Source: a virus
Virus record (IMG/VR): IMGVR_UViG_3300017963_000356
Location: 1 to 48,995 of that record
Reading direction: 5' to 3' (one strand)
DNA: 48,995 nt
A program made the position numbers and the translations under genes. Below are positions 3,586-47,216 of the stretch, one piece after another; the first letter of the stretch is position 1; every line of letters starts with the position of its first letter. The notes under the pieces were generated by a model. The model saw only the letters and a list, made by a program, of their open reading frames with translations. It had not been told where the DNA came from and did no database searches.

Positions 3586-3776
3586 TGCCAGACACTCGTA
3601 GATTCAGAGAAATTATGATCGAGATGAAAGGCATCAAAAAAGTCTGTCCAGACTGCAGAAACCCACTGAAATTAATAGACTTCCAAATGACTGGAATAGA
3701 TGGTAGAGAGAGTACCATGAGCATGTTCTATTGCGACATGTGTAAAGAATACTTCCTGGAGACACCTAATGAGTAA
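3585..3776 (+). CDS. small zinc-ribbon protein, 63 aa
   Basis: The start overlaps the preceding stop (TAATG), which implies translational coupling. Two CxxC knuckles (CPDC at about 21-24 and CDMC at about 50-53), separated by about 25 residues of strands, make a classic zinc ribbon. No other domain is present. Its partner is unknown. It continues the run of small metal-binding proteins in this part of the arm. Confidence 0.65.
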   Translation: MPDTRRFREIMIEMKGIKKVCPDCRNPLKLIDFQMTGIDGRESTMSMFYCDMCKEYFLETPNE

Positions 3777-4095
3777 AGAAAAAGTTCTGGAATTCAGCCC
3801 GGAAAAAGTGTCAGAGGCTCATGAGAAGATAGTAGATATGCTTAAGGAGAAGAAACTAACTGTCGGAGAACTATTGGTTCTGTATGGCAACTTAGGATAC
3901 ACTCTCGGAGCATCAATAGCTGGATACAAAGAGAAAGGACCGTCACCAGAGGAGCTAGAAAAGCTCTACTACACAGGTAGTTCTGATAGAAAGAAACACC
4001 TGGGTGTAGCACTAATGCTCCAAGGAATGACGGTCACATCTTGGTATGAGGACTGGAAAGGCATACAGCTAAACGAAGATATTCAGGAGGAATAA
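3769..4095 (+). CDS. hypothetical helical protein, 108 aa
   Basis: It overlaps the previous gene by 8 nt and ends 5 nt before the Whirly-like gene. The sequence is mainly helical, with a Gly-rich hydrophobic stretch (LLVLYGNLGYTLGASIAGY, about 36-54) that could be a membrane or buried helix. An acidic C-terminus follows. I do not recognise a family. Its position next to the replication genes suggests co-expression with them. Confidence 0.6.
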   Translation: MSKEKVLEFSPEKVSEAHEKIVDMLKEKKLTVGELLVLYGNLGYTLGASIAGYKEKGPSPEELEKLYYTGSSDRKKHLGVALMLQGMTVTSWYEDWKGIQLNEDIQEE

Positions 4096-4100
4096 CGCAA

Positions 4101-4664
4101 ATGTTACCAATGCAATGGGCTGTATATAAGGGAGTTACAGGAAAGTTTGGAGCAATCCAAATCACTCCCCAAGCACCACATCACTACAAAGGTAAGGAGA
4201 AGTCCTTTAACGAAAAGGATAAGGACGGCGAATCTATCTTTGAAGTCGTGGACGGAAGACGAAAGCTCAAAGAGGGCTGGAGTTCAAGAGATGGATGCTT
4301 GTTCTTGAACATCGCATCCGCTAAAGACAAGAATGTGTATGACTGGGAAAACAAAATTGTTTTTGCCCTCTCAGTCAGCGACATGGGACAAATTCTCTAC
4401 TTCCTCACTATGGGCTGTGATCCGAAGGGCAATGAGTCACTAAGCCTCATGCACGACCCGGGCGCAAAGAGTGAGTCTCAGGGCGCAGTGAAGAAATTCA
4501 TGCGTCTATACTCTCCCAAGGGTGTTGCCAAGGGCTGTATGGTCACTATGACCCAGCAGTCTGGCGGGCAAGAGAGAAAACACGAAGTGCCACTAGACGG
4601 AGCCGAGGCGATGACCCTCAGGTCACTCCTACAAGCGGCTATCCCACAGGCACTTAACTGGTAA
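4101..4664 (+). CDS. Whirly-like single-stranded DNA-binding protein
   Basis: The C-terminal 125 residues of this 187-aa protein read like the Whirly domain of plant ssDNA-binding proteins. GCLFLNIAS (65-73) is followed by YDWENKIVFALSVSDMGQI (80-98), HDPGAKSESQGAVKKFM (118-134), a VPLDGAEAMTLRSL strand-helix (163-176) and the closing IPQALNW (181-187). The plant signature is YDW..K..FALS..E.G, then HDP...S..G.V.K, then P...GW. The start has a GGAGGA site 11 nt upstream. No OB-fold SSB is seen in the window, and RNase H and a 3'-5' exonuclease follow directly, so this is the best candidate for the phage SSB. The family call comes from motif matching by eye. Confidence 0.72.
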   Translation: MLPMQWAVYKGVTGKFGAIQITPQAPHHYKGKEKSFNEKDKDGESIFEVVDGRRKLKEGWSSRDGCLFLNIASAKDKNVYDWENKIVFALSVSDMGQILYFLTMGCDPKGNESLSLMHDPGAKSESQGAVKKFMRLYSPKGVAKGCMVTMTQQSGGQERKHEVPLDGAEAMTLRSLLQAAIPQALNW

Positions 4665-4702: not shown

Positions 4703-5302
4703 ATGAACTTTGAGAAGAAAGAAGCAAACGACAGGCTCGAGGCTATCGTAGAGATGATCTATGAGCACATGAATGCTGCTGACCTACTAGTTAGCACACA
4801 GAATCTGCTCACTCAGATTAGCTGCGTAGCGTTAGGCATAGAGCCAACACAGGAGCAAAGACCCTTGACTAGACCACATATCGTAATATCATGTGATGCT
4901 TCCATCAAAAAGAACCCAGGCGGTCCTGCCTCTGTTGGAATTGTTATCGAATTCCCAGACCAGAGACCAGAACTTGCAATGAGTAGGCCATCCAAGGCTG
5001 AAACTAATAACCAAGCAGAGTACGAAGCTATCTACTTTGCCCTCATGACCCTATTCAACCTACATAATAACCCCGGAACGATGGTTGAGATAAGGTCAGA
5101 TAGCAGACTAGCAATCGAGCAGCTTAACAAGGAAATGGAATGTCGCGACAAGTCACTAAAAAACAAAAGAGACATCATACTGCAGTTTGTAGAAAACCTG
5201 CCAGTGGAAGTGAGGTTTGTGTGGAGACCAAGGAACAGCACACAAGCACTAAAGAAAGCAAACTATCTAGCACAAGACGAGCTAAACGTCCCAAGACACT
5301 AA
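4703..5302 (+). CDS. rnhA: ribonuclease HI, with Asn at the fourth catalytic position
   Basis: The product degrades RNA in RNA-DNA hybrids, for example primers. The N-terminal 55 residues are a helical extension. The RNase H fold follows: Asp65 in SCDASIKKNPGG, Glu106 in NNQAEYEAI and Asp133 in RSDSRLAIEQL. The usual final Asp in the AD-LA motif appears to be Asn187 (KKANYLA). Loss of that carboxylate is milder than loss of the other three in well-studied enzymes, so activity is plausible but may be reduced. A GGAG site lies 9 nt upstream of ATG 4703. The 3' 163 nt overlap the exonuclease ORF if that gene uses its first ATG. Confidence 0.85.
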   Translation: MNFEKKEANDRLEAIVEMIYEHMNAADLLVSTQNLLTQISCVALGIEPTQEQRPLTRPHIVISCDASIKKNPGGPASVGIVIEFPDQRPELAMSRPSKAETNNQAEYEAIYFALMTLFNLHNNPGTMVEIRSDSRLAIEQLNKEMECRDKSLKNKRDIILQFVENLPVEVRFVWRPRNSTQALKKANYLAQDELNVPRH

Positions 5303-5991
5303 GAATCCTCGAGGGTGACATTGACAAGAGGCTATATAATAGCCTGGTTAAACGAGAGTACCTTGGTCTTGATACGGAGACTGATGGACTGAACTGGCTC
5401 TCAGACAAGCTGAGGATGATACAAATTTCCACAGCAGATTTGCGCTGCTATATTATTCGGGAGCCTAACGAATATAGTAGATGGCTACAGGCTCTCCTTC
5501 TACATGGATACGCTACCAAGATCTTTCATCATGCGCTATTCGACCTAAGGTTCATTAAGAGGTGGATGGCAATCGACATAGCTGGACAAGTAGAGTGTAC
5601 CAAAACACTCCACAAGATGATCCACCCAGGAGTTAAGGCTGGACTAGCACACCTAGTCAAGTCTAGGTATGGAATTAGTCTGCCTCACATGGGAACCTAT
5701 AACTGGGATGGTAAGCTTACTGCCAAACAAAAGGAATACGTAGTCGGGGACGTATTGTATCTGCATACATTAGTGCGAGACCTCAAGAGAGAGGCTAGTC
5801 ATGGACAGCTAGCTAGATACAGAATGGCCATGCGCACTATCAGAAATAAAGCTACCCTTGAGGTAGAGGGCTACGAGGATACACTAGACTATCCTATTGG
5901 AGACAAAGATCGTCTAGAAAATATCCGCGCAATCTGGGCTATCATGAAGCAAAGAACTGGCCCACTCACACAATTATCAAATCCCGAATAG
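5140..5991 (+). CDS. DEDDy 3'-5' exonuclease (RNase D / proofreading type)
   Basis: The exonuclease core has ExoI YLGLDTETDGL (Asp78, Glu80), ExoII FHHALFDLRF (Asp135) and ExoIII with Tyr200 and Asp204 (YVVGDVLYL), giving the full DEDDy set for two-metal hydrolysis of a 3' end. It could proofread for the polymerase or process RNA. ATG 5140 has an AAGGA site 7 nt upstream but lies 163 nt inside rnhA, and the first 50 residues are low-complexity Lys/Ser/Thr. GTG 5221, near an AGTGAGG element, is an alternative start that would shorten the overlap to 82 nt. Confidence 0.83.
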   Translation: MSRQVTKKQKRHHTAVCRKPASGSEVCVETKEQHTSTKESKLSSTRRAKRPKTLRILEGDIDKRLYNSLVKREYLGLDTETDGLNWLSDKLRMIQISTADLRCYIIREPNEYSRWLQALLLHGYATKIFHHALFDLRFIKRWMAIDIAGQVECTKTLHKMIHPGVKAGLAHLVKSRYGISLPHMGTYNWDGKLTAKQKEYVVGDVLYLHTLVRDLKREASHGQLARYRMAMRTIRNKATLEVEGYEDTLDYPIGDKDRLENIRAIWAIMKQRTGPLTQLSNPE

Positions 5992-6008: not shown

Positions 6009-6668
6009 ATGAGTAACGAATGGGAAGAGGATTGGGAAGAGAACTGGGACGAGGAAGATCTGGAAGAACTATACACCGGAGGCGAAGACCACGTCGAGCC
6101 GGAAGATCTGTTCTCGATGGTCATGATCAACAAGAGGAGAAAGGTCAAGACCTCAGTAGAGCTCAGAGATGAGGATGGCGATACAATAGAGCTGAAGGAT
6201 GTAATCCAGCAGCTACTACAGTATTCCAAAGACAAAATGTCTGACAAGGATGGCAATCAGTTCAATGAACAGATCATGCCACTAATGGCTCAGTCAGTAG
6301 TCAGCGGTCTAGGTCGTATGATTGGCATTCGAGCCACAGCATTCCATCTGTCTAACGAGCTGACTCGTGCAGCGTTCGTACAGATGATGGCTATTGGCCT
6401 CCTGATCCTCAAGTTCATCCAAAAGGAAGGGCTCAAGATCTACACATACGAAGAGCCTGTCACAGACGAAGAGATAGAAGATATTCACAGGAAGTCTAAG
6501 GCCAACTCAGTAGCCACTCTGGCAAGCCTGGCCGGGGCAAACCCAAGAGAGGTGCTGGAAGAGCTGAGAGCCCAAGGACACATCACCAATGAGGATCTCG
6601 AAGATATTCTCAATGGTGAAGGAGATGAGAATGAAGAAGACAAAGACGAGGGTAACTCAGGCAACTGA
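6009..6668 (+). CDS. acidic protein of unknown function, 219 aa
   Basis: AAGGAG lies 8 nt upstream of ATG 6009. The first 35 residues are very acidic with repeated Trp (EEDWEENWDEED). A central helical region (about 95-140) contains a hydrophobic stretch ending FVQMMAIGLLILKFI, which could be a membrane helix or a buried core helix. The C-terminus is again Asp/Glu-rich. I recognise no domain. The 3' 38 nt overlap the HIRAN-like gene. A DNA-mimic or chaperone-like role is conceivable from the charge but not supported further. Confidence 0.65.
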   Translation: MSNEWEEDWEENWDEEDLEELYTGGEDHVEPEDLFSMVMINKRRKVKTSVELRDEDGDTIELKDVIQQLLQYSKDKMSDKDGNQFNEQIMPLMAQSVVSGLGRMIGIRATAFHLSNELTRAAFVQMMAIGLLILKFIQKEGLKIYTYEEPVTDEEIEDIHRKSKANSVATLASLAGANPREVLEELRAQGHITNEDLEDILNGEGDENEEDKDEGNSGN

Positions 6669-7224
6669 GGCCTACTGGGCTAAGCCTAGCCCCCTAGGAC
6701 TAAGTTCACAGACATTCCAAGAAAAGAAAAACTCCAAAGGAGCCATTCTGGACCAGCCCGACCGTGGAACCCTAGAGCTGTATCCTGCCGGATTCACAAA
6801 GCCATCACTAATGGATGGTGTCTCTAGGCAGCAGGTTCACAAGGCAATCTACGAGCAGGCACAGAAGCTTGGGACATCTGAGGACCTATACCCCTTTGGC
6901 AAAACAGGAACTCATAGTATTCAGCTAGTCCCGCTGCATGACAACGAGTGGGATCCAAATGCTACGATGATCCAGCTTGTAGCCGACTCAGACAGTCCGC
7001 TAGCCCACCTCAACGGCAGAGACCTGGGATTCATCCCATTGAAGATTTCTAGCCTAGTAAAGAGGAACATTAGTATGTTCACAGGTGGTGCCATACTAAA
7101 GACGAGAGCGGAAGTATACAAACGGTACTGGCAATGCAAGGTCATTCTCTCATATGGCGAGGCACAATTCGCACCACTGGATAGAACAGCTAGGAATAGA
7201 TTTGCTGCTATCATGGGGGAATAA
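6631..7224 (+). CDS. HIRAN-like domain protein, 197 aa
   Basis: I chose ATG 6631 because an AAGGAG site sits 7 nt upstream; in-frame ATGs at 6589 and 6613 lack one. The C-terminal half matches the HIRAN pattern: a conserved strand (SIQLVPLHDNEWDPNAT), then a hydrophobic strand, then NGRDLGFIPLKISSL. In known HIRAN domains D-N-DPNA is followed by G--LGY-P. HIRAN domains in HLTF bind the 3' end of ssDNA, and bacterial copies occur alone or with nucleases. A DNA-end-sensing role in repair or replication is possible. The N-terminal 70 residues are unassigned. Confidence 0.6.
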   Translation: MKKTKTRVTQATEAYWAKPSPLGLSSQTFQEKKNSKGAILDQPDRGTLELYPAGFTKPSLMDGVSRQQVHKAIYEQAQKLGTSEDLYPFGKTGTHSIQLVPLHDNEWDPNATMIQLVADSDSPLAHLNGRDLGFIPLKISSLVKRNISMFTGGAILKTRAEVYKRYWQCKVILSYGEAQFAPLDRTARNRFAAIMGE

Positions 7225-7853
7225 TGCGCTTCATAGCATACGGGTTCAACCTCAACTCAGATAACCACGAGCTAATCCGTCAGATGGTAGGTATAGTTAC
7301 TGAACAGGCTGTAGATATCTACGACCTTCAGAACTACGACGCTATCCATAATGGTGAGGATGTCGTGTTTTTCTTTGGCGAGCACTGGCGCGTAACAGAA
7401 GCTAAAGAGAAGCCATGCTATGTCAAAGTAGATTTTCCAGATGTAGATAGATTGGCCTCGGACTATGGTGACGAAGCTGAGAGGGAACTCGCTTACGAAA
7501 AACTGCTCAAGTTAAAGGGTGCCCTGAGCTCAGGTAACCCGAGCGGTGCAAGTAAATGCGCTGAAGAGCGTCAAGTCAACGTTATTAAAGAAGAGTCTCT
7601 GCCTGATCTGACCTCCCAACAGGTCCTACAGCAGCTTGAGGCTGCAATGGACCAAGAAGGAGTCCAGGCCTGGGAAGGTGTTACCAAAGATGGACTAAAA
7701 GTTCGTTTATCTTTGGAGCCTGAAGAGGGCACAGCAGACGTAAACTTAACGTTCGCTGAACTTTTCTTTATCCGGGCAGGAATGGAGGCTCTCAAGATTA
7801 GGGAGTTCGAACTTGTACCCAAATCTAGCTTTATTCGGAAAAGCAATCCTTAG
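7224..7853 (+). CDS. hypothetical protein, 209 aa
   Basis: The start overlaps the previous stop (TAATG). An N-terminal alpha/beta region (MRFIAYGFNL, then DVVFFFGEHWRV at about 47-58) is followed by a charged linker at about 80-130 and a C-terminal helix-strand region. No motif identifies a family. The VVFFFGE strand could be a Rossmann-like core strand. It lies directly upstream of the Ycf46-type ATPase cluster and is likely in the same transcript. Confidence 0.6.
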   Translation: MRFIAYGFNLNSDNHELIRQMVGIVTEQAVDIYDLQNYDAIHNGEDVVFFFGEHWRVTEAKEKPCYVKVDFPDVDRLASDYGDEAERELAYEKLLKLKGALSSGNPSGASKCAEERQVNVIKEESLPDLTSQQVLQQLEAAMDQEGVQAWEGVTKDGLKVRLSLEPEEGTADVNLTFAELFFIRAGMEALKIREFELVPKSSFIRKSNP

Positions 7854-8013
7854 CGAGGCTGCACGCCGTGTAGTAGAACAAGGAATAACAGAGCTGGATA
7901 AACGAATCGACTCATACGTTGAGTCAATAAAACAGAAAGTAGAAAGAGGAGACAGAAATGTCCGAGCAAGTAACCACTCAGCCCCAGGAAGGGAAAGATC
8001 CCAAGTTCCATAA
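7813..8013 (+). CDS. possible small helical protein, TTG start, 66 aa
   Basis: The 104-nt gap between the flanking genes is covered by this frame, which starts at TTG 7813 with an AGGGAG element 7 nt upstream. The middle (about residues 14-45) is a strongly amphipathic helix (SEAARRVVEQGITELDKRI). The last 18 residues overlap the ATPase gene and look non-native. It may be a real small gene, or the gap may be a leader for the ATPase operon. Confidence 0.35.
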   Translation: MYPNLALFGKAILSEAARRVVEQGITELDKRIDSYVESIKQKVERGDRNVRASNHSAPGRERSQVP

Positions 8014-9751
8014 TGCTATGGAAGAAATCCTGGCGTTGATCAAAGCCCGAGTGCCAATCATCTGGGTAGTCACTCACGAAGAGGGTAGATTCATTGACGA
8101 TTTCGTGAATCTTGTAGCCGAGCCAAATGCTCGACAAGTATGGCTATGGTCTCTCTATCAGGGGCTCATCAGACAGAACCAGTACATGGACAGCCAGGGT
8201 ATGAGAGCTACTGGCGAGGAGTCAGAGACATTCCAGCCACCAGTCGCCCTGGAACACATCGTCAGAATGAAGCCACAGAACAATGACGTAAAGGGCATCG
8301 TGTACATCATGCGTGATGCATACATGGTCATGACCGAGCCTGTTACAAGGCAGATCAGAGACATGTATGAGCATCTGATCAACACAGGCAAGACCCTCAT
8401 CATCACAGGTCCAATGCTAGCCCATGGTGCAGGTGGCCAGATCTCTGGTCTGCCGCCAAACCTGGAAAAGCAGGTCACTGTAGTGAATTTCGAGCTTCCA
8501 AAGCCAGATCAGATCGAAGTTCGTGTGCGAGAAGCAATTCAGCACATGAAGAAGAGCGACAGAAGCCAACGGCACAAGAACACCAAGCTCACATACGACG
8601 ACATGGAAGTCCAGGAATGCACTCGTGCGCTCACTGGTCTGACCATGATCGAGGTAGACGACGCAATCTCTACGTCAGTAACTCACATGCAGGAGCTGAA
8701 CGTACAGAGACTGATTGCCGCAAAGCGTCAGATCATCAAGAAGAATCAGATCCTGGAATTCATCGACCAGCCAGTAGGAATGGAAGATGTCGGCGGAATG
8801 GACCATGCCAAGGAATACTTGGCAAGGTACTCACGTCAGTGGACAGACGAAGCGAAGGCCTTCGGTGTAGAGCCACTGAAGGGTATGCTCCTCACCGGAA
8901 TTCCTGGAACTGGTAAGTCTCTCCTAGCTAAGGCCATCATGTCAGCCTGGAAACTTCCTGGCCTACGTATTGACGTAGGTAAGGTAATGACAGGCCTGGT
9001 AGGTGGATCTGAGGAGAAGATGAGGCAGGTCATTGGACAGCTCGAGGCCATGGCTCCCTGCATCGGCTGGATCGATGAGGTAGAGAAGGCACTGAGCGGT
9101 ACCAAGAGCTCCAACTTCTCAGATGGTGGTACTCTAAGCCGCGTGTTCGGTACACTACTAACCGCGATGGAAGAAGGCCTCAAGGGCGTTACCATCGTAG
9201 CTACAGCGAACGATATCACAGCACTGCCACCAGAGTTCATTCGCAGGTTCAATGAGGTATTCTTCGTGGACCTTCCTGGACCAGACGAACGCTGGGAAAT
9301 CATGGGAATCCACCTGAGAAAGCGTGGCCGTGATATCAAAGCCTTCGAGAAGCAAAAGAAGGAACTTCTGGATGCTACAGACGGATTCACTGGAGCTGAG
9401 ATTGAGAAGGCAATCAAGGATGCCATCGCATCTGCCTTCGAAGAGAACCAGAAGGACGTAGAGTCCAAGAACATCGTCGCTGCTGTAGATGACACCAAGC
9501 CAATCTCCAAGGTCATGGGGGCTAAGGTCGCCAAGCTGAGGGACAAGGCAAAGGGCAGCTACAGATATGCCAGCTCATGGGCAAAGGACCAGGCTGGCAA
9601 GCACGAGGTCAAGACTGGCAAAGGCAAAAAGCTTGACCTAGACGATGCACTTGATAATATGGATGAAGTAGCCACTACGCCTAAGAATAGGCACAAGAAG
9701 GCTAAGGCGAAGATGGGTAACCGCTTCGAAGAAATATCTAAAGAGAATTAA
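7958..9751 (+). CDS. Ycf46-type AAA+ ATPase
   Basis: This 597-aa protein has the layout of cyanobacterial and plastid Ycf46. An N-terminal domain opens with LIKARVPIIWVVTHEEGRF (28-46). A single AAA+ module follows: Walker A GIPGTGKS (314-321), Walker B WIDEVEKAL (371-379), sensor 1 in ATAND (about 415-419), Arg residues 429-430 and a TGAEIEKAI sensor 2 helix (478-486). The last 100 residues are Lys-rich. It should hydrolyse ATP and remodel a protein or nucleic-acid target that is not known. It is followed at 11 nt by a DUF1257 gene and then a DUF2997-like gene, which argues for a joint complex. Confidence 0.88.
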   Translation: MSEQVTTQPQEGKDPKFHNAMEEILALIKARVPIIWVVTHEEGRFIDDFVNLVAEPNARQVWLWSLYQGLIRQNQYMDSQGMRATGEESETFQPPVALEHIVRMKPQNNDVKGIVYIMRDAYMVMTEPVTRQIRDMYEHLINTGKTLIITGPMLAHGAGGQISGLPPNLEKQVTVVNFELPKPDQIEVRVREAIQHMKKSDRSQRHKNTKLTYDDMEVQECTRALTGLTMIEVDDAISTSVTHMQELNVQRLIAAKRQIIKKNQILEFIDQPVGMEDVGGMDHAKEYLARYSRQWTDEAKAFGVEPLKGMLLTGIPGTGKSLLAKAIMSAWKLPGLRIDVGKVMTGLVGGSEEKMRQVIGQLEAMAPCIGWIDEVEKALSGTKSSNFSDGGTLSRVFGTLLTAMEEGLKGVTIVATANDITALPPEFIRRFNEVFFVDLPGPDERWEIMGIHLRKRGRDIKAFEKQKKELLDATDGFTGAEIEKAIKDAIASAFEENQKDVESKNIVAAVDDTKPISKVMGAKVAKLRDKAKGSYRYASSWAKDQAGKHEVKTGKGKKLDLDDALDNMDEVATTPKNRHKKAKAKMGNRFEEISKEN

Positions 9752-15738: not shown

Positions 15739-16091
15739 TGGATAGATATAACCGGCTCTACCAACACGGAGCAGCACAATTTGAGCTCAGTTTCTATCTA
15801 CCAGACATAGAGGAGTGCCGGTTTCTGATTTTGAAGGTAGTAGAGCAGGCAGTAAGGGACTACCTTTCGCTGTTTGGCTCGAACTTGCCGAACGATATAG
15901 CCACTTGGGAAACGGCAGTGGGATTCATCTTTGATGAAGACTACAAGATCATGTGGGGTAATCTTGAATTGTCCCAAGAGGATTTACTAGGAATCGTAGA
16001 CATAGACGTCAAGTGGTTCCGAGAAAGAATGTTAGAGCGCTTCAAAGAGAAGCATGGAAGGTACCATGGCAAGAAAGAAGAAAGAAGATAA
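15738..16091 (+). CDS. conserved phage-type hypothetical protein, 117 aa
   Basis: The start shares a base with the nrdJ stop. The central segment [20 protein letters not shown] and the end [19 protein letters not shown] match a small family that accompanies phage replication genes, with an F-D--Y-I-WG-----ED-L pattern. Its function is unknown to me. The basic tail lies in the 26 nt that overlap the recA start. Confidence 0.6.
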
Positions 16092-17094
16092 CGAAACCAT
16101 CGAAGATACAAAGTCTCCAGAGGATAAAGCTCTAGAGCTCGCAATCGCATCAATCGAGAAAGACATCGGCAAGGAAGCTCTGATCGTAGGTGACGCAGTC
16201 ATCCCAGATGTAGAGTGGTTCTCATCCGGATGTATGAGTCTAAACAAAGCTCTCACCGGTCACTATGACAAGGGATATCCCAAGGGTAGAATCGTTGAGA
16301 TCTTTGGTCCTGAATCCAGTGGGAAGACTACGCTCTGTCTTCATGCTATCGCAGAGATGCAAAAGATCGACAGACGTGCAGCATTTATTGACGTAGAACA
16401 TGCGTTTGATCCAGTCTATGGAGCAAGCATCGGTATCGATATCAATAAGCTAATCTTCTCTCAACCAGACAATGGTGAACAGGCACTCCAAATTGCTGAC
16501 AGACTCATCAAATCTGGCGCTCTGGGTCTAGTAGTTATTGACTCAGTGGCAGCCCTGACTCCACAGGCAGAGATTGAGGGAGAGATCGGTGACAGTCACG
16601 TAGGTAGGCAGGCTAGACTCATGAGCCAAGCTATGCGCAAGCTCGTAGGACCATGTCTCCGAACCAAGACTACCGTCATGTTCGTCAACCAGATCCGTAT
16701 GAAGATTGGCGTCATGTTCGGTAACCCAGAGACCACCTCAGGTGGTAATGCGCTAAAATTCTACTCGTCTCAGAGATTGGACATCAGACGTACTGGTGGT
16801 GTCAAAGAAGGCACAGGCGATGACAAAGAATTCGTCGCTAACCACACTCGAGTCAAGGTAGTTAAGAACAAGGTAGCTCCTCCGTTTAGAGAAGCTGAGT
16901 TCCAGATCAGATACGGCCACGGTATTGACATCGTTCAGGATCTCCTGTCTGTAGCAGTCAAGCACGATGTCGTAGAGAAATCTGGAGCCTGGTACTCCTA
17001 TGCCGGAGACAGACTTGGCCAGGGAGAGGCCAATGTCGTAGCAGCTTTAAAAGAAAAGCCAGACCTGATTCAGGAAATCCAATCCAAACTGTAA
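16066..17094 (+). CDS. recA: RecA recombinase
   Basis: The 342-aa product is a full-length RecA. It has Walker [19 protein letters not shown] (catalytic-Glu region), Walker [11 protein letters not shown], the L1-loop region [18 protein letters not shown], and L2 ending [18 protein letters not shown]. The C-terminus is short and lacks the long acidic tail of E. coli RecA. It drives strand exchange and recombination-dependent replication. ATG 16066 has GGAAGG 4 nt further upstream of the spacer and is preferred over an ATG at 16054. It lies between nrdJ and the polymerase, consistent with a replication operon. Confidence 0.95.
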
Positions 17095-17412
17095 ATGGCA
17101 TCAGATATCGGCGAGCTGTTTGACTACAGTTCAGAAGGCTATGACGGCCAAATCCACATATGGAGTGGGAACTGGAACAAGCGGTTCATTCACCTATACC
17201 TATGGCGTAAAGTAGATCCACACGAGGGTGGCGTGTGGAAATATGCCCTTGATGTACGTAACAGGTATAATCACACCATAGCCCTAACACAAGCAGAGCT
17301 CAATCACCTCATGGCAGAGGTGATCTACATGGTCATTTCAGGGGAGCGAATCGAAGAAGAGGAAGCCCAGCCTATTGACCGCTTCGCTTTGCTGTTTGGA
17401 GACAACTCATGA
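17095..17412 (+). CDS. hypothetical protein, 105 aa
   Basis: The ATG follows the recA stop with no gap, and the stop overlaps the polymerase PHP gene by 4 nt. The first half has strands rich in Trp and Tyr (HIWSGNWNKRFIHLYLWRKV), and the second half is helical. I recognise no family. Its place between recA and the polymerase argues for a replication-linked role but says nothing specific. Confidence 0.6.
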   Translation: MASDIGELFDYSSEGYDGQIHIWSGNWNKRFIHLYLWRKVDPHEGGVWKYALDVRNRYNHTIALTQAELNHLMAEVIYMVISGERIEEEEAQPIDRFALLFGDNS

Positions 17413-18464
17413 GTAAAGACTTCACACACCTACACGTACACACGGAGTACTCAGTGCTAGATGGAGCTAATAAAATAGATAAGCTAGTCGAGAGAGTAAA
17501 GAATCTTGGCATGTCTGCGTGTGCCATCACTGATCATGGTGTCCTGCACGGAGTCATAGAATTCTACAAGAAGGCAAGAGAAGCTGGCATCAAGCCAATT
17601 ATTGGCTGTGAGGCCTATATTACTGAAGATAGAGACGGACTCGAGAAGGAAGAAATGAGGCGAGATAACCGCCACATGGTCCTTCTTGCTCAGAATGAAA
17701 CAGGTCTGAGAAATCTCATCTGGCTTATCAACAATGCCAACCTGAATAACTTCTACTATAAGCCAAGAGTATTCTATGGGAACCTCAAAGAAAGATCCGA
17801 TGGTCTAATAGCTACTACTGCATGCATGGGAGGCATAGCTGCTAAGAAGACCATGATGAAGAGGGGAGTATCTGGACAGCTTCCAGGTATGGAGGGCATA
17901 GAGATACAGGGCAGCCTATACGACGAAGAGAAAGACGAATTCCTAGATTATTTTGGGGAGGGTGAGCGCTGGGTCAACGAGCTCATCAAGCCTTATTTTG
18001 AAGGAAGACTCTACCTTGAAGTGCAAGATCATAACATCAAGATGCAGAAGGCATACAATAGGTGGGTCATTGCAAAAGCCAAGGAGTGGGATCTGCCTCT
18101 AGTCATTACTGCAGATGCGCACTATCTACGTGAAGAAGATAAGGCTACGCACAATCTCATTATGGCTCAGCAGATGAAGATGACCCTGGAAGAGTATGAA
18201 GAAAAAGAAGATAAGAATGACTATTCGGGTGGAAATTTTTTCATCCGAGATCCGGAAGATATGTATAAGGCTGCTGCCGCAATGGGAGCAGAAGAAGCGT
18301 TCTGGAATACTATAAAGATAACCGAGAAGTGTGGCATCGAGATCACACTAGGTGAATACCAGAACCCCGAGTTTGACATCACTACTAGTGATGACTACCA
18401 AGATTTTCTTGCGTGGCAAGAAAGAGACTGTAGTATACTTGGAACTCAACAAGCACATGAATGA
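17409..18464 (+). CDS. dnaE: DNA polymerase III alpha, N-terminal PHP part (separate frame)
   Basis: The 351-aa ORF is the PHP domain of a DnaE-type polymerase. Its metal ligands look complete: HLHVHTEYS, ITDHG, GCEAY, NRHMVLL, TTACMGG and ITADAHYL. This suggests a metal-binding and possibly proofreading-active domain. The frame runs to TGA 18462-18464, where standard DnaE would continue into the palm and fingers. The core is in the +1 frame and its ATG 18457 lies within the last codons (8-nt overlap). The two halves may be separate subunits, joined by +1 frameshifting near 18408-18412, or split by a sequence error. Confidence 0.88.
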   Translation: MSKDFTHLHVHTEYSVLDGANKIDKLVERVKNLGMSACAITDHGVLHGVIEFYKKAREAGIKPIIGCEAYITEDRDGLEKEEMRRDNRHMVLLAQNETGLRNLIWLINNANLNNFYYKPRVFYGNLKERSDGLIATTACMGGIAAKKTMMKRGVSGQLPGMEGIEIQGSLYDEEKDEFLDYFGEGERWVNELIKPYFEGRLYLEVQDHNIKMQKAYNRWVIAKAKEWDLPLVITADAHYLREEDKATHNLIMAQQMKMTLEEYEEKEDKNDYSGGNFFIRDPEDMYKAAAAMGAEEAFWNTIKITEKCGIEITLGEYQNPEFDITTSDDYQDFLAWQERDCSILGTQQAHE

Positions 18465-21093
18465 GCTAGATCGTTATTTTGTATACAAGTGTGAAGTAGG
18501 TCTACAGACAAGAGGCCTACTAAACAAAGTCGAATATAGAGATAGGCTACGCTACGAGATGGAGACCATCATTAAGATGGGCTTCCCTGGCTACTTCCTA
18601 ATCGTCCAAGACTTTATTGAATGGGCAAAGAGAAACGGGATCTATGTCGGTCCCGGTCGTGGAAGTGCAGCCGGTAGCTTGGTAGCCTACTGTCTTCGCA
18701 TCACAGAAATAGATCCACTAAAGTTTGGGCTACTATTCGAGAGGTTTCTCAACCCTGACAGAATCTCTATGCCTGACATTGACGTAGACTTTGAGAAGAG
18801 ATTCCGAGACAGAGTCATTGACTATGTAACCCAGAAGTATGGCGATGACAGAGTAGCACACATCGGAACCTTCAATATGCAGCGAGCCAAGGCGGCAGTG
18901 CGTAGTATTGCTAAGACCTTGGGCCATCCATATGCAGTAGGTGACCAGCTAGCTAAGCTGCTACTGGCCCCCGTACATGGCAAACCACAGACACTGACAA
19001 CCTCTATCAAACTGGTGCCCGAGCTCCATGCGTACAGAAATTCCGATAGTACACAAGGAGATATCCTACGATGGGCAGAAAAGGTGGAGGATCATATAAA
19101 CAGTGTGGGTGTCCACGCCTCAGGTGTGGTAATCAGCAACGAGACAATGATGGACACAGTTCCTCTGTTCAAGGGCAGAGGGGACGAGGTTACCACCCAG
19201 TGGGAGATGAACAACATCGAGGAATTCGGTCTGATCAAGTTCGACTTCCTTGGCCTCGAGGCTCTAGATAAGATCCATAAGTGTGTTGACATCATTGAGG
19301 AAAGACACAGGCAAAAGATAGACATCAACCAGGTAGACATCGAGGATGACAAAGTCTACGCCAATCTGCGTACAGGTGACAACGTAGGCGTGTTTCAGCT
19401 CGAGGCAAGCTCAGGGATGAAAGACCTTCTGGTTCTCATCCGTCCAACCTGCCTGGAAGACCTGATTGCCCTGGTAGCTATCTATCGTCCAGGTCCATTG
19501 GACTCTGACTACAAAGATATCTATCTATCTGTTCGTGCAGGGCAGAGAGACCCAGAGTATCTGGTCCCAGAGCTAGAGCCTATTCTCTCTAGAACTGCTG
19601 GCTGGCTAATCTACCAAGAACAGATCATGGAGATTGCCAAACAGCTCTGTGGCTACACAGGCGGTGAAGCTGACGAGCTGCGGAAAGCCGTAGGCAAGAA
19701 GAAGCGCTCGCTCATGGAGAAACATGAGCCTAAGTTCAAGCAGGGGTGGAAAGAGTCTGGCCTACCAGAAAAGATGGCAGATCGGCTCTGGAACGACATG
19801 GTTGCGTTCGCCGCCTATGGCTTTAACAAGAGTCACGCCGCTGCGTATGCATATATTACCTACCAGACCGCCTGGTTAAAGACGCACTATCCAGTTGAGT
19901 ACATGTGCGCCGTGATGACCTGTGATGCTGGTAATAAAGACCAAATGATTCGATACCTAGCTGAGTGCAAGAGACTAGGTATAGAGGTGCTGCCTCCTGA
20001 TATCAACGAGAGCAGGCAGTCCTTTCACGTTACTAAAGAAGGCAAGATACGCTTTGGATTGGGCCCAATTAAGAACCTAGGTGAAGGCCCAGTTGAGAAA
20101 GTCATCGAGGAACGAGAGAAGAGACCCTTCACCAGCCTGAGGGATTTCTGTGAACGTGTCGACCTGGGCACGATCAACAGATTAAAGCTTGACTCTCTGA
20201 TCAAAGCAGGTGCATTTGATTGCATGGAGATGACACGTGCAACAATGCAGAGTGCTGTTGAGATCATCTGGGATCACCGAGCTGAAATGAAGAAATACTT
20301 CAAGAAGCTCGAGACCTACCAGAAGAAACTCGATGCCTGTGCCCAGAGATTAGAAGATATTGAGAAAGGTGTCCTATCTGACAAGGGGAAGAAGCTCAAG
20401 CCACTGAAGCCACCGGAACGTCCGGAGGAACCAGAATGGCCAACGATTCTAGAGATGGATGAACTGCCCCAGGACCAACTGCTCGCGGACGAGCATGAGC
20501 TCCTAGGCTTTTTCGTTTCTGCTCACCCCCTTGAGGAGATCGGCACTAAGCTGTTTGGCCACAGATTTAATAGCTTTGAAGACATTAAACAGATGCCTAG
20601 AGGCACCAAGATACAGTTGGCAGCAGTTACTACGAATAAGACAGAGATTACGACCTCCAAGTCCAAGAAGAAGATGGCTTTCCTGACCTTCGAGGACCTG
20701 ACAGGGAGCATTGAGGGAGTTTGCTTCCCCAATGTATATGAAGCCAACAAAGATATGATGGAAGAATCAAAACCAATCAGCGTAGCTGGCGTTGTAGAAG
20801 TAACAGAAGCTGATGACGGAAGAGTGACCAAGATCGTAGTGCGCAAGATGGGCACACTAGATCTAGCAGCCGAAGATACTCCCGAGAGAATCGTAGCTGA
20901 GGTCAAGGCAACGAGAGCTAGTCAACTAACTAGTCTCCTTGAAGAGTACAAAGGGGACTTGCATGAAGTGCAGGTGGTTCTAAAGACCGATGCAGGGGCG
21001 ACTCTACGGAGTCCTACCATTTTCAAGATAGGTAACTACAAGGGAGCCTTCATGCGAAAGCTAACGAGGATTAACAATGGAGAAAACCAGTGA
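18457..21093 (+). CDS. dnaE: DNA polymerase III alpha, catalytic core (separate frame)
   Basis: This 878-aa ORF carries the palm, thumb, fingers and C-terminal modules of family C polymerase. GFPGYFLIVQDFIEWAK is followed by VGPGRGSAAGSLVAY (primer/dNTP site), then SMPDIDVDFE with two catalytic Asp and KFDFLGLEALDKI with the third. The C-terminal part has an HhH region and an OB fold (TFEDLTGSIEGV). Reading could extend in frame upstream to GTG 18352, and residues just upstream of ATG 18457 look protein-like. The ATG 18457 start assumes translational coupling to the PHP gene. With the PHP part the total is about 1,230 aa, normal for DnaE. Confidence 0.9.
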   Translation: MNELDRYFVYKCEVGLQTRGLLNKVEYRDRLRYEMETIIKMGFPGYFLIVQDFIEWAKRNGIYVGPGRGSAAGSLVAYCLRITEIDPLKFGLLFERFLNPDRISMPDIDVDFEKRFRDRVIDYVTQKYGDDRVAHIGTFNMQRAKAAVRSIAKTLGHPYAVGDQLAKLLLAPVHGKPQTLTTSIKLVPELHAYRNSDSTQGDILRWAEKVEDHINSVGVHASGVVISNETMMDTVPLFKGRGDEVTTQWEMNNIEEFGLIKFDFLGLEALDKIHKCVDIIEERHRQKIDINQVDIEDDKVYANLRTGDNVGVFQLEASSGMKDLLVLIRPTCLEDLIALVAIYRPGPLDSDYKDIYLSVRAGQRDPEYLVPELEPILSRTAGWLIYQEQIMEIAKQLCGYTGGEADELRKAVGKKKRSLMEKHEPKFKQGWKESGLPEKMADRLWNDMVAFAAYGFNKSHAAAYAYITYQTAWLKTHYPVEYMCAVMTCDAGNKDQMIRYLAECKRLGIEVLPPDINESRQSFHVTKEGKIRFGLGPIKNLGEGPVEKVIEEREKRPFTSLRDFCERVDLGTINRLKLDSLIKAGAFDCMEMTRATMQSAVEIIWDHRAEMKKYFKKLETYQKKLDACAQRLEDIEKGVLSDKGKKLKPLKPPERPEEPEWPTILEMDELPQDQLLADEHELLGFFVSAHPLEEIGTKLFGHRFNSFEDIKQMPRGTKIQLAAVTTNKTEITTSKSKKKMAFLTFEDLTGSIEGVCFPNVYEANKDMMEESKPISVAGVVEVTEADDGRVTKIVVRKMGTLDLAAEDTPERIVAEVKATRASQLTSLLEEYKGDLHEVQVVLKTDAGATLRSPTIFKIGNYKGAFMRKLTRINNGENQ

Positions 21094-36336: not shown

Positions 36337-38943
36337 TTAGTAGCGGGAGTCCTGCTTGTCTCGATGGCCATATTCGCCTTCGAACTCAGCCCTCCAAGCC
36401 TTAGGAGGCTCGACCCCATATTGATCCTTGAAGCACCACCAAGCGCGTCCAAGTTTATGCCCTTTCTCGCCACACTCACGGGCGACAATCTCTCGGTAAG
36501 AGGCATGTAGATCCTCTAATTGATCCTGCATCTGAGCCTGCATCTTCGTAGAATCAGTTCCGATGAAATCAGAACTTGCAGGCCAGAAGCTGAAGTACAG
36601 CTTATTCTTGAAGGCAGTGATCTTGTTCTTTCCAACATCTCCTTCAATGACTGGAAGCTTCTTGAGCTCCCCGTCCTGGTTGTCTACATGGAACAGACCA
36701 GCTTGATCCCCCATCTCATGCATTTCGTTATAGATATGCATTACGAAGTTGGCATCGTACTCGATCTGACCAGTTTCACCGATATCTGCGTTAGTACCTC
36801 GCTTACCCTGCTCAACCTTCTTGTACTCTACGGTTGCAAAGATACAAATATGCCAGCGGGTAGCCAGATCCTTCATTACCTGAGACATCTGCTTGAAACG
36901 CACACGCTCATCACCACGGCCCAGGGCCTTAAAGTCCTGAAGCTTGTGGAAGTTATCCAATACATAGACGATGTTCCTATCTGGGTAACGCTCCTTGTAG
37001 TAACGAATAACCTGATTGGCATACGCAATAGAGGCTCCATCATTAGCGTCTTTGATAATGATACGACCCTTACGAATGAGCTCCCGAACTACGGAATAAC
37101 CAGCTTCACGTCGGTCAAACATAGACTGACGTTCAGCTTCATCAGCGATGCTAGTCGCGTGATAGTTAGGATCCATGACCTGATTGAGATTCAGCTTCTT
37201 CGAGCCCTCTGCAATACAGATAAACTTTGGAAGAATCTGCTCAGTCGTGTCATCGATCGTGTGATAGATAACCAAAGCATCGTTCTCGTCATGACGTGCA
37301 ATCTCATATGTGAGCTTACACATCAGAGAGGTCTTGCCACAGTTGGCCTTACCGGCAAAACAGAACCAGACATCCTTCTTCCACTCACCACAGAGAGCAT
37401 CTTGCATCTCTTGCAGATCAGGTCCAAGAATGTAACCAGAGAATGAACCATCTTTGGCTTCTTCATAGTTCTTCTGACGATCTAGGCGAGCCATAGTCGC
37501 CTCTTCAGAGAAGGAATCCTCATCATACTTGCGGTTCAGGTCAAAGAGCTCAGTCTGAGCCTGCTGAATCGCAAACTCGAGGTTGTCAGGATCCTTCTTA
37601 ATAGTTAGAGACATCGCATCGATGATTGACTGACGCTCTCTAGACTTCTCTGCATCGCGCTGGTTCTGAAGTCTGTTCAATTCAGCTTGAATTGCCTTCA
37701 AAGAGACACCAGTAGCTCTGGCAAGTACACGACACTGCTTTTCCTGCTCGATATAAGAGGTCTCATTCACGATAAGTGGAATCATTGCCTTGGCAACAGT
37801 ATCGCCTTCTTCGTCGTCGGAAAACTGAGCAAGTCTCCACTCAAAGGCAGACCACTTCTTGAGCCTCTTGAACTTATTCGCACCATGGGCACGAATAAAC
37901 TCATCAGGATCCATCTGATCAGGAATCATCACGACCTCTACTGAGAGATCTTTATGTCCTGCAAGAACAGTATCCAGAAGCTTTGCAGTTCTCTCCTGGC
38001 CAGCCTGATCACCATCCAGACAAAGGATAATGCCATAGAATCCATGAGACTTTAGAAGCTGCACCTGTTCCTCTGTGAGAGCTGTACCACCACAAGCTGT
38101 TGCGTTATTAATTCCATTCTCAATAGCAGTTGCAACATCTGAGTACCCCTCGAACACGTACACAGACTTTGTACGCTTGGTCCGAGTTTTAAGAACTCTG
38201 TCCAGACCGAACAAACGCTCAGACTTACGATAGATGTTACACTTTACACCAGTGTGCTTCTGGTTAACGTACTTGCTCCCATTCTGTTTGTCTCCATTGA
38301 ACTTCAGGTTCCTAGAGGCAAATCCAACAGGACGTCCACGCTCATCTCTGATAGAGAAGATAAGACAGTCCTCACCAAAAATCTCACGACGAGAAAGGTC
38401 AACATCATCTAGAAAACTAGCAGCAAAGCCACGAGCCTTGAGGTGATTCCTAAATGCAGCATAATCTGGAACACAACCGATACCCAGCTCTTCACAGGTT
38501 TTCTTAGACCAGCTACGTTCCTTGACAGCCTTGTTGAATTGCTTGCTCTTTACACCGTGAGTAATGAACTCAGCTGCCGTACGATATGCACGATAGGTGT
38601 CGAGCTCATACACCTGTTCCTCAGTTAGGGGAGTCCCATCTACAGGGATACCATACTTCTCAGCTAGAGGTATGAGTGTCTCAGTGATATACTCCTGCCC
38701 TACGAGAGGCTTGCCTTCGAGAAAGTGAGCAGCTGTAAAGATATTTCCTGCGACACCACAGCCAAAGCAGTGGAAGATCTCACCGTTCCCATCACCAGAA
38801 ATGGTTGAAGACGGTGTCTTGTCGTTATGTTGAGGATCGATACAACGGAAATGATTATCCGTATCGATACCATGCTCTTGGAGATACTTCGGGAGATATG
38901 CGCGAAGTTGTTCGACAACCTCATCGTAATTCTTGATGTTCAC
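36337..38943 (-). CDS. primase-helicase fusion (DnaG/DnaB-like, T7 gp4-type)
   Basis: This 868-aa protein combines a primase and a replicative helicase. The CHC2-type zinc finger has Cys34, His39, Cys59 and Cys62 (FRCIDPQHN, FHCFGCG). The TOPRIM domain carries FEGYSDV (Glu265) and LCLDGDQAGQER (310-315). The helicase has Walker A GKANCGKTS (531-539), Walker B IVYVLDNFHKLQ and a downstream TVEYKK motif. It should unwind and prime the fork, as T7 gp4 does. The start is GTG 38943 with AGGAGA about 8 nt upstream. It follows the Cas4-like nuclease and precedes the nuclease-rich stretch. Confidence 0.92.
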   Translation of the reverse strand: MNIKNYDEVVEQLRAYLPKYLQEHGIDTDNHFRCIDPQHNDKTPSSTISGDGNGEIFHCFGCGVAGNIFTAAHFLEGKPLVGQEYITETLIPLAEKYGIPVDGTPLTEEQVYELDTYRAYRTAAEFITHGVKSKQFNKAVKERSWSKKTCEELGIGCVPDYAAFRNHLKARGFAASFLDDVDLSRREIFGEDCLIFSIRDERGRPVGFASRNLKFNGDKQNGSKYVNQKHTGVKCNIYRKSERLFGLDRVLKTRTKRTKSVYVFEGYSDVATAIENGINNATACGGTALTEEQVQLLKSHGFYGIILCLDGDQAGQERTAKLLDTVLAGHKDLSVEVVMIPDQMDPDEFIRAHGANKFKRLKKWSAFEWRLAQFSDDEEGDTVAKAMIPLIVNETSYIEQEKQCRVLARATGVSLKAIQAELNRLQNQRDAEKSRERQSIIDAMSLTIKKDPDNLEFAIQQAQTELFDLNRKYDEDSFSEEATMARLDRQKNYEEAKDGSFSGYILGPDLQEMQDALCGEWKKDVWFCFAGKANCGKTSLMCKLTYEIARHDENDALVIYHTIDDTTEQILPKFICIAEGSKKLNLNQVMDPNYHATSIADEAERQSMFDRREAGYSVVRELIRKGRIIIKDANDGASIAYANQVIRYYKERYPDRNIVYVLDNFHKLQDFKALGRGDERVRFKQMSQVMKDLATRWHICIFATVEYKKVEQGKRGTNADIGETGQIEYDANFVMHIYNEMHEMGDQAGLFHVDNQDGELKKLPVIEGDVGKNKITAFKNKLYFSFWPASSDFIGTDSTKMQAQMQDQLEDLHASYREIVARECGEKGHKLGRAWWCFKDQYGVEPPKAWRAEFEGEYGHRDKQDSRY

Positions 38944-40824: not shown

Positions 40825-41784
40825 TTATGCAGTCAAATCTGCATGCACCATTTCTTTGACGAGCTCTTCAAAGGTAATCTCTGGTCTCCACCCAAGTTCC
40901 TGTTCTGCTTTACTATAGTCTCCAACTAAAACATCAACTTCGGCAGGCCTATAGAACCTTGGATCAATTTCTACGTAATCCTCATAGCTTCCAAGCCCAG
41001 CCTCTTCAAAGGCTACCTTGCAAAAATAGCGAACAGTCTGAGCTTTCCCAGTAGCAAGGACGAAGTCATCTGGTTTATGGTGATTTAGCATCATCCACAT
41101 GCCGCGCACAAAATCTTTCGCGTGACCCCAATCTCTCATAGCATCCAGGTTACCCAAGTACACCTTATCTTGCCTATGCTTAGCTATATTGGCACAGGCC
41201 AGAGTGATCTTCCTAGTTACGAAATTAGGTCCACGCCGTGGACTCTCATGGTTAAAAAGGAGCCCATTGCACGCAAACATCTTGTAGGACTCTCGGTAGT
41301 TAATAGTAATCCAGTAGCCAAAAAGCTTGGAAACACCATAGGGTGAGCGAGGGTGTAACTCACTGGTTTCAGTCATCTTTGTCTGGCCATGAAGTCCACC
41401 GAACAACTCGCTCGTAGAAGCCTGATAGAAGCGCGTATGGAGTCCAGACTGCCTCACAGCCTCAAGACAGTTTAAAACGCCGAGAGCGGTCACCTGGGCC
41501 GTATAGAGAGGCTGTTTGAACGATGTTCCTACATGCGACTGGCTTGCTAGATTGTAGAACTCATCAGCTCTAGCCAGGGCACATAGCGAGCTGAGACTAG
41601 GCAAGTCTAGCAAATCTCCTTCTACTACCTCGATATCCTTTTCAAGATGTTTTGAACATCCAAGCGAATGGTCTGAGGTCCTTCGTTTTAGACCATAAAC
41701 CTTATAGTCTTTCTCGAGCAAGAGCTCTGCTAGATAGCTGGCGTCTTGGCCAGTGATCCCGGTAACGATAGCTGACTTCTTCAT
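40825..41784 (-). CDS. gmd: GDP-mannose 4,6-dehydratase
   Basis: The product converts GDP-mannose to GDP-4-keto-6-deoxymannose, precursor of GDP-fucose, -rhamnose and -perosamine. It is a short-chain dehydratase: GITGQDASYLAE (9-20) is the family-specific nucleotide-binding loop. The catalytic part has STSELFG and SPYGVSKLFGYW (Tyr and Lys), and RFYRPAEVDVLVGDYSKA is the substrate-binding tail. At 319 aa it is somewhat shorter than cellular enzymes. No epimerase-reductase (GMER) follows in the window, so the next step must come from the host or elsewhere in the genome. Confidence 0.92.
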   Translation of the reverse strand: MKKSAIVTGITGQDASYLAELLLEKDYKVYGLKRRTSDHSLGCSKHLEKDIEVVEGDLLDLPSLSSLCALARADEFYNLASQSHVGTSFKQPLYTAQVTALGVLNCLEAVRQSGLHTRFYQASTSELFGGLHGQTKMTETSELHPRSPYGVSKLFGYWITINYRESYKMFACNGLLFNHESPRRGPNFVTRKITLACANIAKHRQDKVYLGNLDAMRDWGHAKDFVRGMWMMLNHHKPDDFVLATGKAQTVRYFCKVAFEEAGLGSYEDYVEIDPRFYRPAEVDVLVGDYSKAEQELGWRPEITFEELVKEMVHADLTA

Positions 41785-45405: not shown

Positions 45406-46109
45406 TAGATGCTCCTAATCCAAAGACTCTGCTGAAAGTCCATTAGACATACCCAGCCCTGCTCAGCTAGATACTCTTTAGCAAGCCGAGGCTTTCCGCC
45501 ACCTGGCAACTGATTGTCATCTATTAGAACAATTGATCGAGGATGAAGGTTCTTTTCAACAGCCTTCATTTCCTTTAGGCAATGCTTTTGACACGGATCA
45601 ATAATTGAACCAAAGCGCGAAAGGATCTCTTTAACATCAAGCTTCTTGAGCTCCTCTTCTGCATTCACTAGATTCTTCTGACCTCCAAATGCGTTTAGCA
45701 TCTGACCATAGGGATAGTCCCAACTGTCAAGATAAATTAGGTCAATAGAATCTGTCCAACCGTTTAGAAACTCTACTGAGTCCATAGTAAAGAACTGCTT
45801 GTCTATATTGTAATTACGAGTAACCTTTTGTGCAGCAGAAATACTGTTTGGACTAAGATCAACACTCACTAGGCTGCCACCATACCTGCTTATATACTCA
45901 CAAAACAAAGTAGTAGACATTCCACCACCAAGATCATCCTTAAGACGCTGACATCCGGTCTCCACAATATGAGGCTTATCGAACCTCTGATTCAAGAGGC
46001 CCAATGTAATCTGCCAGGTAGGATACCTGGAGTTTGCTCCACCTCTATACCAATCTCTATAGAGCCAGTTCTCCCAGTCTGGACCAGTAAATATTAGGCT
46101 TCTATCCAT
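45405..46109 (-). CDS. SAM-dependent methyltransferase in glycan cassette
   Basis: Residues 50-105 show a methyltransferase core: HIVETGCQ, then LGGGMSTTLFCEYISRYGGS followed by LVSVDLSPNSISAA, then DLIYLDSWDYPYGQ. This pattern (G-G-S, acidic end of strand 2, LDSWD) is typical of class I family 24-type enzymes. The C-terminal part is unassigned. It may methylate a sugar in the glycan; the substrate is inferred from the neighbours. Confidence 0.76.
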   Translation of the reverse strand: MDRSLIFTGPDWENWLYRDWYRGGANSRYPTWQITLGLLNQRFDKPHIVETGCQRLKDDLGGGMSTTLFCEYISRYGGSLVSVDLSPNSISAAQKVTRNYNIDKQFFTMDSVEFLNGWTDSIDLIYLDSWDYPYGQMLNAFGGQKNLVNAEEELKKLDVKEILSRFGSIIDPCQKHCLKEMKAVEKNLHPRSIVLIDDNQLPGGGKPRLAKEYLAEQGWVCLMDFQQSLWIRSI

Positions 46110-47214
46110 TAATACTTTCCAACCTTTCTTTCATAAGCCGTCCAACAGTCTGCCAATTTAGGTTCTCTTTTACCCAGGCCTTAGCCCTTTGTCCTTTCTC
46201 AGCAGCCTCTTCTCTGTTCTCAAATATAAACCTCATAGCTCTGCGAGCCTGCATAAGATCCGGCTCTGCCCATTCCATATAGCCCTTGTACATAGGCCAG
46301 GGCATACCTGCTACCGGAGTCATTTGATAATCTATCGGCCAGCCATTATCCTTATTGAGAAAATCTTCAGCACCACCATATTGTGTAGCTATAACAGGTT
46401 TTCCAGCTAGCATAGCCTCTGTAAGAGGAATCCCAAATCCCTCGCAGCGATTCAGAGAAACATAACAATCGCATTGCTTATGAAGAGACAGGATCTGGTC
46501 TCTTGTCATCAATGAGGAAATTAACAAAAGCCTTGGATACTCAGGAAGATATAGATTATGCTTAATAGCCTGAATACCCTTAGTAACTGACTGCGCATCC
46601 TCAGGACGTCCTGGATGTTGGCGAAAAGTTTTCATTACGAGAGTTACGTGTTCATCTGTCTTGAACTCAGTAAGAAATGCTCTCAAGAGCCCGATAGGAT
46701 TCTTTCGCTCGAGCCACTGGAAGATAGAATAGAAGTAGAACTCTCCATCCCGGCCCTTAACTATAGGTTCCGATTGCTCGAGGTTCTCTACTTCATTCAC
46801 ATCAAAGGTATGGGGAATAACATAAACGGGGATATCTATGCTCTTCTCAAAAACCTCTTTGTTGTGTTGAGATGGCACCCAAACCTCGTCTAAGAGGTTA
46901 ATCATTGGTATCCACTCATCGGGTAAACGACTAGCCTCCCAGGCTGCGTAACCAATATTATAGTGAGCTTTCCTAACTAAGTTACGATAGTTAGGTGGTG
47001 TAGCATGAAGGATACGAATCTTGGTTTTTCTATCATCTCCTATCAAACTATCGATCAAGTCACCAAGCTTACCCATATTGGTCTTCTTGGCCTCAAAACT
47101 AATAGGAACAACCTTTTGCTTTACTCCAACAGCATTCAGGGCTGCAATGTTATTCCTCGCTGCCTCAGCATATCCAGAGCTATCTAGACATGCTCCGATA
47201 TAAGTAATCTCCAT
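46102..47214 (-). CDS. GT4-family glycosyltransferase
   Basis: The 370-aa protein has a GT-B layout. The C-terminal EGFGIPLTEAMLAGKPV holds the E-x7-E motif of retaining GT4 enzymes, and an upstream FYSIFQWLERKNPIGLLRAF corresponds to the linker and second domain. It transfers a sugar from a nucleotide donor with retention of configuration. The donor is not determinable. It overlaps the methyltransferase start by 8 nt. Confidence 0.85.
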   Translation of the reverse strand: MEITYIGACLDSSGYAEAARNNIAALNAVGVKQKVVPISFEAKKTNMGKLGDLIDSLIGDDRKTKIRILHATPPNYRNLVRKAHYNIGYAAWEASRLPDEWIPMINLLDEVWVPSQHNKEVFEKSIDIPVYVIPHTFDVNEVENLEQSEPIVKGRDGEFYFYSIFQWLERKNPIGLLRAFLTEFKTDEHVTLVMKTFRQHPGRPEDAQSVTKGIQAIKHNLYLPEYPRLLLISSLMTRDQILSLHKQCDCYVSLNRCEGFGIPLTEAMLAGKPVIATQYGGAEDFLNKDNGWPIDYQMTPVAGMPWPMYKGYMEWAEPDLMQARRAMRFIFENREEAAEKGQRAKAWVKENLNWQTVGRLMKERLESING

Positions 47215-47216
47215 AT

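Follow-up and report, generated by a model that had tools for sequence, protein, structure and literature searches.

Can a phage carry a member of the Whirly family, and if so, would the protein stand in for an SSB or act beside one? This question was raised by an open reading frame near the start of the stretch of DNA analysed here (the window, which is the entire 48,995-bp 'linear' IMG/VR record). Whirlies are presented in reviews as proteins specific, or unique, to plants (PMC9070903, PMC6963530). The gene and its translation signal are as follows.

4101..4664, + strand: Whirly-family protein of 187 aa with an ATG start, assigned from PF08536, an AlphaFold2 model, Foldseek and conserved positions
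4085..4090, + strand: AGGAGG, ribosome-binding site of the Whirly gene as read from the sequence, within the 3′ end of the upstream gene

A Pfam-A scan of this ORF matched a single family, PF08536 (Whirly), with 62 bits and E 7e-17 over residues 62-175. The curated Pfam cut-off for this family is 23 bits, and it was also exceeded by the nine relatives searched and by both MAG contigs described below. Searching PDB sequences with phmmer returned six plant Whirly chains (E 1e-7 to 5e-7), followed by unrelated chains at E ~1, so that the sequence matches of the window protein in the PDB are Whirly only. As a control for chance matches, an HMM built from four plant sequences alone was run on about 1600 ORFs from 14 loci. 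The window ORF was detected at E 5e-13, and a further 12 Whirly ORFs from viral or MAG contigs at E 4e-12 to 7e-25; the best unrelated ORF scored E 2.5. The preliminary description of the locus had likened the C-terminal two thirds of the protein to plant Whirlies, and the expected motifs are present: YDW-E-K at residues 80-85 (Y80, D81, W82), H118 D119 P120 and a terminal NW (W187). The likeness also reaches the N-terminus. The N-terminal strand reads YKG(VTGKF)GAIQ, for which the plant counterpart is YKGKAAL, and because the N-terminal stretch YKGVTGKFGAIQ pairs with plant YKGKAALT in the alignment, homology extends along nearly the whole length. We conclude that the product of ORF 4101-4664 is a true member of the Whirly family.

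The predicted structure agreed with this assignment. AlphaFold2, supplied with an alignment of the window protein and three viral relatives, returned a model (pLDDT 80.9) with two antiparallel sheets, each accompanied by a helix (residues 92-104 and 167-185), forming two sheet-plus-helix halves. Foldseek against the PDB placed plant Whirlies at all of ranks 1-16 (E 1e-10 to 3e-8), and every solved plant Whirly was matched. Pur-alpha and MRP1/2 came next, at a distance (E 7e-4 to 5e-2). These proteins share the broad fold class of the window protein in Foldseek, but no sequence similarity to them was found and the match is clearly weaker than that to Whirly. The window protein is not an OB-fold SSB: its model has the Whirly fold, and PF00436 has no match in the window.

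Plant WHY1, WHY2 and WHY3 (PF08536; PDB 1l3a, 3n1h, 4koo, 4kop, 4koq) are thus homologous to the window protein over most of its length, with 27-29% identity to plant WHY2. The two sheet-plus-helix halves, YKG, YDW, HDP, VP..E and the terminal W are common to both. Unlike its plant homologues, the window protein is encoded within a phage gene block, has YKGxxGKxGA with a four-residue insertion in place of KGKAAL, and has a longer region between residues 30 and 60.

Single-protein scans of viral contigs with the window Whirly or the AAA ATPase of its block returned no relatives, so that alignment queries were required. Fifteen relatives were recovered (16 sequences with the window). Twelve are in IMG/VR contigs found by alignment-driven scans (L002-L007, L009-L011, L025, L040 and L044), one is in Acinetobacter phage ME3, and two are in Thermoplasmata MAG contigs (L008 and L019/L027). 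Apart from ME3, all Whirly contigs are metagenomic and most are probably partial. A tblastn search of INPHARED phages and PLSDB plasmids gave nothing beyond chance.

Ten residues are invariant in the 15 viral sequences that remain when ME3 is left out, namely Y9, K10, G65, Y80, D81, W82, K85, H118, E169 and W187. The same ten are found in the four plant sequences, except for F at Y9 in AtWHY2 and StWHY2 and R at K85 in StWHY2. Fourteen positions are conserved in at least 14 of the 15 viral sequences, and 13 of these 14 are common to plants. D119 and P120 are variable in distant viral members.

We considered archaeal Whirlies as a source of the Thermoplasmata matches and rejected them. A match was obtained in only 2 of the 293 genomes of the phylum. 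One match is on a 3-kb contig with the start of a ribonucleotide-reductase-like ORF; the other is close to one end of a 25.7-kb contig that also has profile matches to RNase H, RecA and RNR. From this frequency and the contents of both contigs, viral contigs in Thermoplasmata bins are likelier than archaeal genes.

The gene of the single cultured carrier is the following.

KU935715, 97413-97778: ME3_95 of Acinetobacter phage vB_AbaM_ME3, annotated as hypothetical

ME3_95 is Whirly-like by profile (E 7e-10; E 2.6e-6 with the profile of the window's clade), and was not detected with the plant-only profile (E 2.6). In the structure search, an ME3 protein, presumably ME3_95, matched the window protein at E 7e-5. 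RecA and an exonuclease are encoded near it. Compared with the window protein, ME3_95 as annotated is truncated at the N-terminus and has lost HDP. Just upstream of 97766 on the minus strand of KU935715, a stretch resembling the Whirly N-terminal strand sits beside ME3_95 in another frame; a frameshift or sequencing error may therefore have shortened the gene as annotated. Among predicted viral structures, the top match of the window protein was UniProt A0A6J5NR37 from an uncultured Caudovirales phage (E 1.2e-8, TM 0.72 on target, 23% identical in the structural alignment). This entry already bears the automatic name 'Whirly transcription factor', so a phage Whirly was on record in databases before.

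The Whirly gene belongs to a conserved block, which in the window comprises the following genes in addition to a ClpP-like gene.

3769..4095, + strand: 108-aa protein, probably helical as judged from sequence, directly upstream of Whirly in nearly all relatives
4703..5302, + strand: RNase H (PF00075, E 2.8e-8), acidic residues CDAS / AEYEA / SDS present (alignment A7)
5140..5991, + strand: 3′-5′ exonuclease of the DNA_pol_A_exo1 type (PF01612, E 1e-15), true start probably after the first ATG
6009..6668, + strand: acidic protein of ~200 aa, conserved in 8 loci
7224..7853, + strand: conserved block protein of ~200 aa, profile matches in 9 loci
7958..9751, + strand: AAA+ ATPase, last in the block (PF00004, E 7e-24; phrog_8638, E 7e-120)

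The position of Whirly just upstream of RNase H and a proofreading-type exonuclease, pointed out at the outset, was thereby confirmed. The order ClpP-like, helical protein of ~100 aa, Whirly, RNase H (or RNase H-like), further conserved genes and AAA+ ATPase is found in the window, L002-L007 and L009. Common to most relatives is a small helical protein, Whirly, an RNase H-like protein, in some cases an exonuclease and an OB protein, and the AAA ATPase. The helical gene was found in 11 of 14 Whirly loci and the AAA+ ATPase in 9 of 14. When loci were collected independently, by their AAA ATPase, 80 were obtained; 9 of them had Whirly together with the helical gene, and the remaining 71 had neither. 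The exonuclease is syntenic in the window, L002 and L003, and an OB-type gene absent from the window lies just before the acidic-protein gene in L002, L003, L004, L005, L006 and L009. The neighbourhood is not universal, since L010 and ME3 lack the local block.

Other features were also seen in these loci. Upstream of the ClpP-Whirly block, L002 (5384-6214; RVT_1, E 7e-21) and L003 (6519-7373; 2e-20) encode a reverse transcriptase with an HNH-like ORF after it; none was seen there in the window. The AAA ATPase of L007 (13008-16943) is apparently broken by two inteins, as judged by eye, and a ribonucleotide reductase of L025 (12907-16983) has intein splicing and LAGLIDADG domains.

The rest of the window contains further DNA metabolism genes.

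16054..17094, + strand: RecA recombinase (PF00154, E 4e-115)
17409-18464, preceding ORF: PHP part of DNA polymerase III alpha (PF02811, E 4e-46)
18352..21093, + strand: DNA polymerase III alpha (PF07733, E 4e-89)
36337..38943, − strand: primase-helicase, DnaG Toprim and DnaB-like (Pfam and PHROGs)

RecA is also present in several relatives, and the window encodes a class II ribonucleotide reductase. DNA polymerase III alpha occupies two ORFs, a PHP one and a catalytic one, with an overlap of ~110 bases as listed. A nucleotide-sugar epimerase and two glycosyltransferase genes lie towards the window end (40825-41784 and 46102-48485, − strand). No recognised virion-structure gene was present among the ORFs scanned, so the window is very likely a fragment. 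The identification of the block carriers as tailed phages rests on the 116-kb L003 record, which has the same block together with baseplate wedge, tail-fibre and virion structural proteins. A terminase was found neither in the window nor in most relatives; the L010 record has a likely one.

This setting bears on what the protein acts upon. The MRP1/2 fold binds guide RNA, and plant Whirlies were first described as the transcription regulator PBF-2. Plant Whirlies bind RNA and promoters (PMC9070903), and in structure the window protein comes closest, after Whirly, to MRP1/2 and Pur-alpha; both facts would suit a protein that chiefly acts on RNA or regulates transcription. We regard this as unlikely, because the genes of the block serve replication and recombination. 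Conservation does not discriminate, the best conserved positions being common to plant Whirlies generally.

Does the phage Whirly then replace an SSB? The preliminary description proposed a phage SSB of different fold because no OB-fold SSB was seen in the window. Our searches of the window agreed with that observation: PF00436 had no match at E <= 10, the OB profile of the relatives had none, and no SSB was present among the ORFs scanned with Pfam or PHROGs. The relatives told a different story. In L002, L003, L004, L005, L006, L009 and L011, an OB-type protein of 105-116 aa is encoded 0.9-1.9 kb downstream of Whirly. These proteins were missed by PF00436 and by PDB profile searches, and their resemblance to SSBs was visible only by structure prediction. 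The model of the L006 protein is an OB fold (pLDDT 86.5) whose 40 best PDB matches are SSBs. In addition, a Pfam SSB is present elsewhere in the 136-kb L010 record (E 4e-28) and in the 195-kb L044 record (2e-26), the latter without a local OB gene. With an SSB-like OB gene in seven relatives and a Pfam SSB in two, Whirly usually accompanies an SSB-type protein. Bacterial-type OB-fold SSBs (PF00436) resemble Whirly in their expected substrate, ssDNA, and in genomic company, but differ from it in fold and have no sequence relation to it; SSB-type proteins occur together with Whirly in nine relatives. Thus Whirly membership, fold and phage setting held from the preliminary proposal, and its reading as the SSB of the phage, with a different fold, was not supported across the family. 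Since an ordinary SSB is found alongside in related phages, Whirly probably works with it rather than replacing it.

The window's subclade (the window and L040) may be an exception to this company, though both records are short (49 and 65 kb). There, the OB gene could have been lost, leaving Whirly as a sole SSB of non-OB fold. The window has no SSB of any searched kind, L040 has neither a PF00436 match nor a downstream OB gene, and none of the window, L007 and L040 has an OB gene at the usual position. However, these three records are short (49, 76 and 65 kb, respectively) and probably fragments, compared with relatives of up to 116-195 kb; the window and its closest relative, which lack both a local OB protein and a Pfam SSB, are both probable fragments. 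Seven relatives have the OB gene beside Whirly and two, including L044, have a Pfam SSB elsewhere. We therefore judge a sole-SSB role quite improbable, even in this subclade.

Small proteins with ends resembling the C-terminal tip of bacterial SSB were also observed. They end in DIPF (L011, 5907-6215; L023, 5949-6287), SIPF (L025, 11434-11808) or GIPF (L007, 1-246). Those of L011 and L025 match SpoVG at or just under the cut-off, and that of L007 is similar by eye only. By imitating SSB, such proteins may draw in repair proteins of the host.

The RNase H-like neighbour keeps its catalytic acids only in the window, L005, L006 and, by eye, L040. In six loci (L002, L003, L004, L007, L009 and L019) the gene position is kept and the acids are apparently lost; the proteins of L004, L007 and L009 were assigned solely by position and weak alignment. 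With the catalytic set apparently complete in those four loci only, a role in R-loops cannot be general, and the RNase H-like protein may be a binding partner, not an enzyme, in the other phages.

The KGKAAL region differs among carriers. In plants, 24-mer assembly has been linked to KGKAAL, and some authors also connect the motif with binding of ssDNA. The window has YKGVTGKFGAI at this site, and its clade shares the four-residue insertion (YKGxxGKxGA); L010 has YKGKAAM, L044 YKGKGAM, L008 YKGKGAL and L011 YKPKAAV. KGKAAL is a motif of higher plants, missing from algae and Marchantia, and the KGKAAM kept by L010 is reported for rice WHIRLY1 in one review (PMC9070903). The altered motif in the window's clade would count against a coat formed alongside SSB, the reading that we prefer. 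It also bears on whether Whirly, instead of being a repair factor, might have an architectural role and compact or shield phage DNA during replication. Whirly1 has a nucleoid role in plastids and plant Whirlies form a Dps-like 24-mer (PMC9070903), and most phage sequences have what looks like a counterpart of the second lysine, the one tied to 24-mer assembly. An architectural role is nonetheless very unlikely in our view, given the insertion in the lysine region of the window's clade and because 24-mers of phage Whirlies are hypothetical.

We consider it probable that the phage protein, as a Whirly, binds ssDNA and takes part in replication, recombination or R-loop repair together with an SSB, RecA and RNase H. 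By analogy with the plant family and from the fold, it would form an oligomer that binds ssDNA on two beta-sheets. It would coat the ssDNA exposed when forks stall, when recombination intermediates form and when an R-loop displaces a strand, acting beside an SSB and not in its place, and would steer repair to RecA and RNase H, away from microhomology joining. The model for this putative repair role comes from the chloroplasts of Arabidopsis, where RNase H1C and RecA1 are associated with WHY1/3 and act with them, and where microhomology-mediated rearrangement increases once WHY1/3 are lost (PMC10909546, citing Wang et al. 2021 and Marechal et al. 2009). SSB and OSB proteins are used along with Whirlies in plant mitochondria (PMC6963530). 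The phage block offers the same company as Arabidopsis, Whirly with RNase H and an SSB-like protein, with RecA encoded in the window and in several relatives; RNase H and RecA thus accompany plant and window Whirlies alike.

Twinkle, the primase-helicase of organelles, is thought to descend from a phage gene. Plant organelle Whirlies could similarly derive from a phage gene, phages having provided a Whirly and SSB kit in which the partnership with RNase H and RecA was pre-existing; we hold this possible, if doubtful. The four plant sequences form one group in the tree (100/99) without any viral member, so that the window protein is not placed as a land-plant orthologue. L010 joins the plants in the unrooted tree at 81/80, and because this support is weak we do not claim a phage origin of plant Whirlies.

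The preliminary description named no characterised phage Whirly, and our search found neither a paper on any phage Whirly nor a characterisation of A0A6J5NR37, most subscription journals and preprints lying outside that search. Within the literature so covered, the phage Whirly family appears to be undescribed, as do its conserved block and its co-occurrence with SSB proteins. A diverse phage branch with one cultured member, ME3, provides a simple setting in which to ask what Whirly adds where an SSB exists, and makes the origin of plant Whirlies testable by phylogeny.
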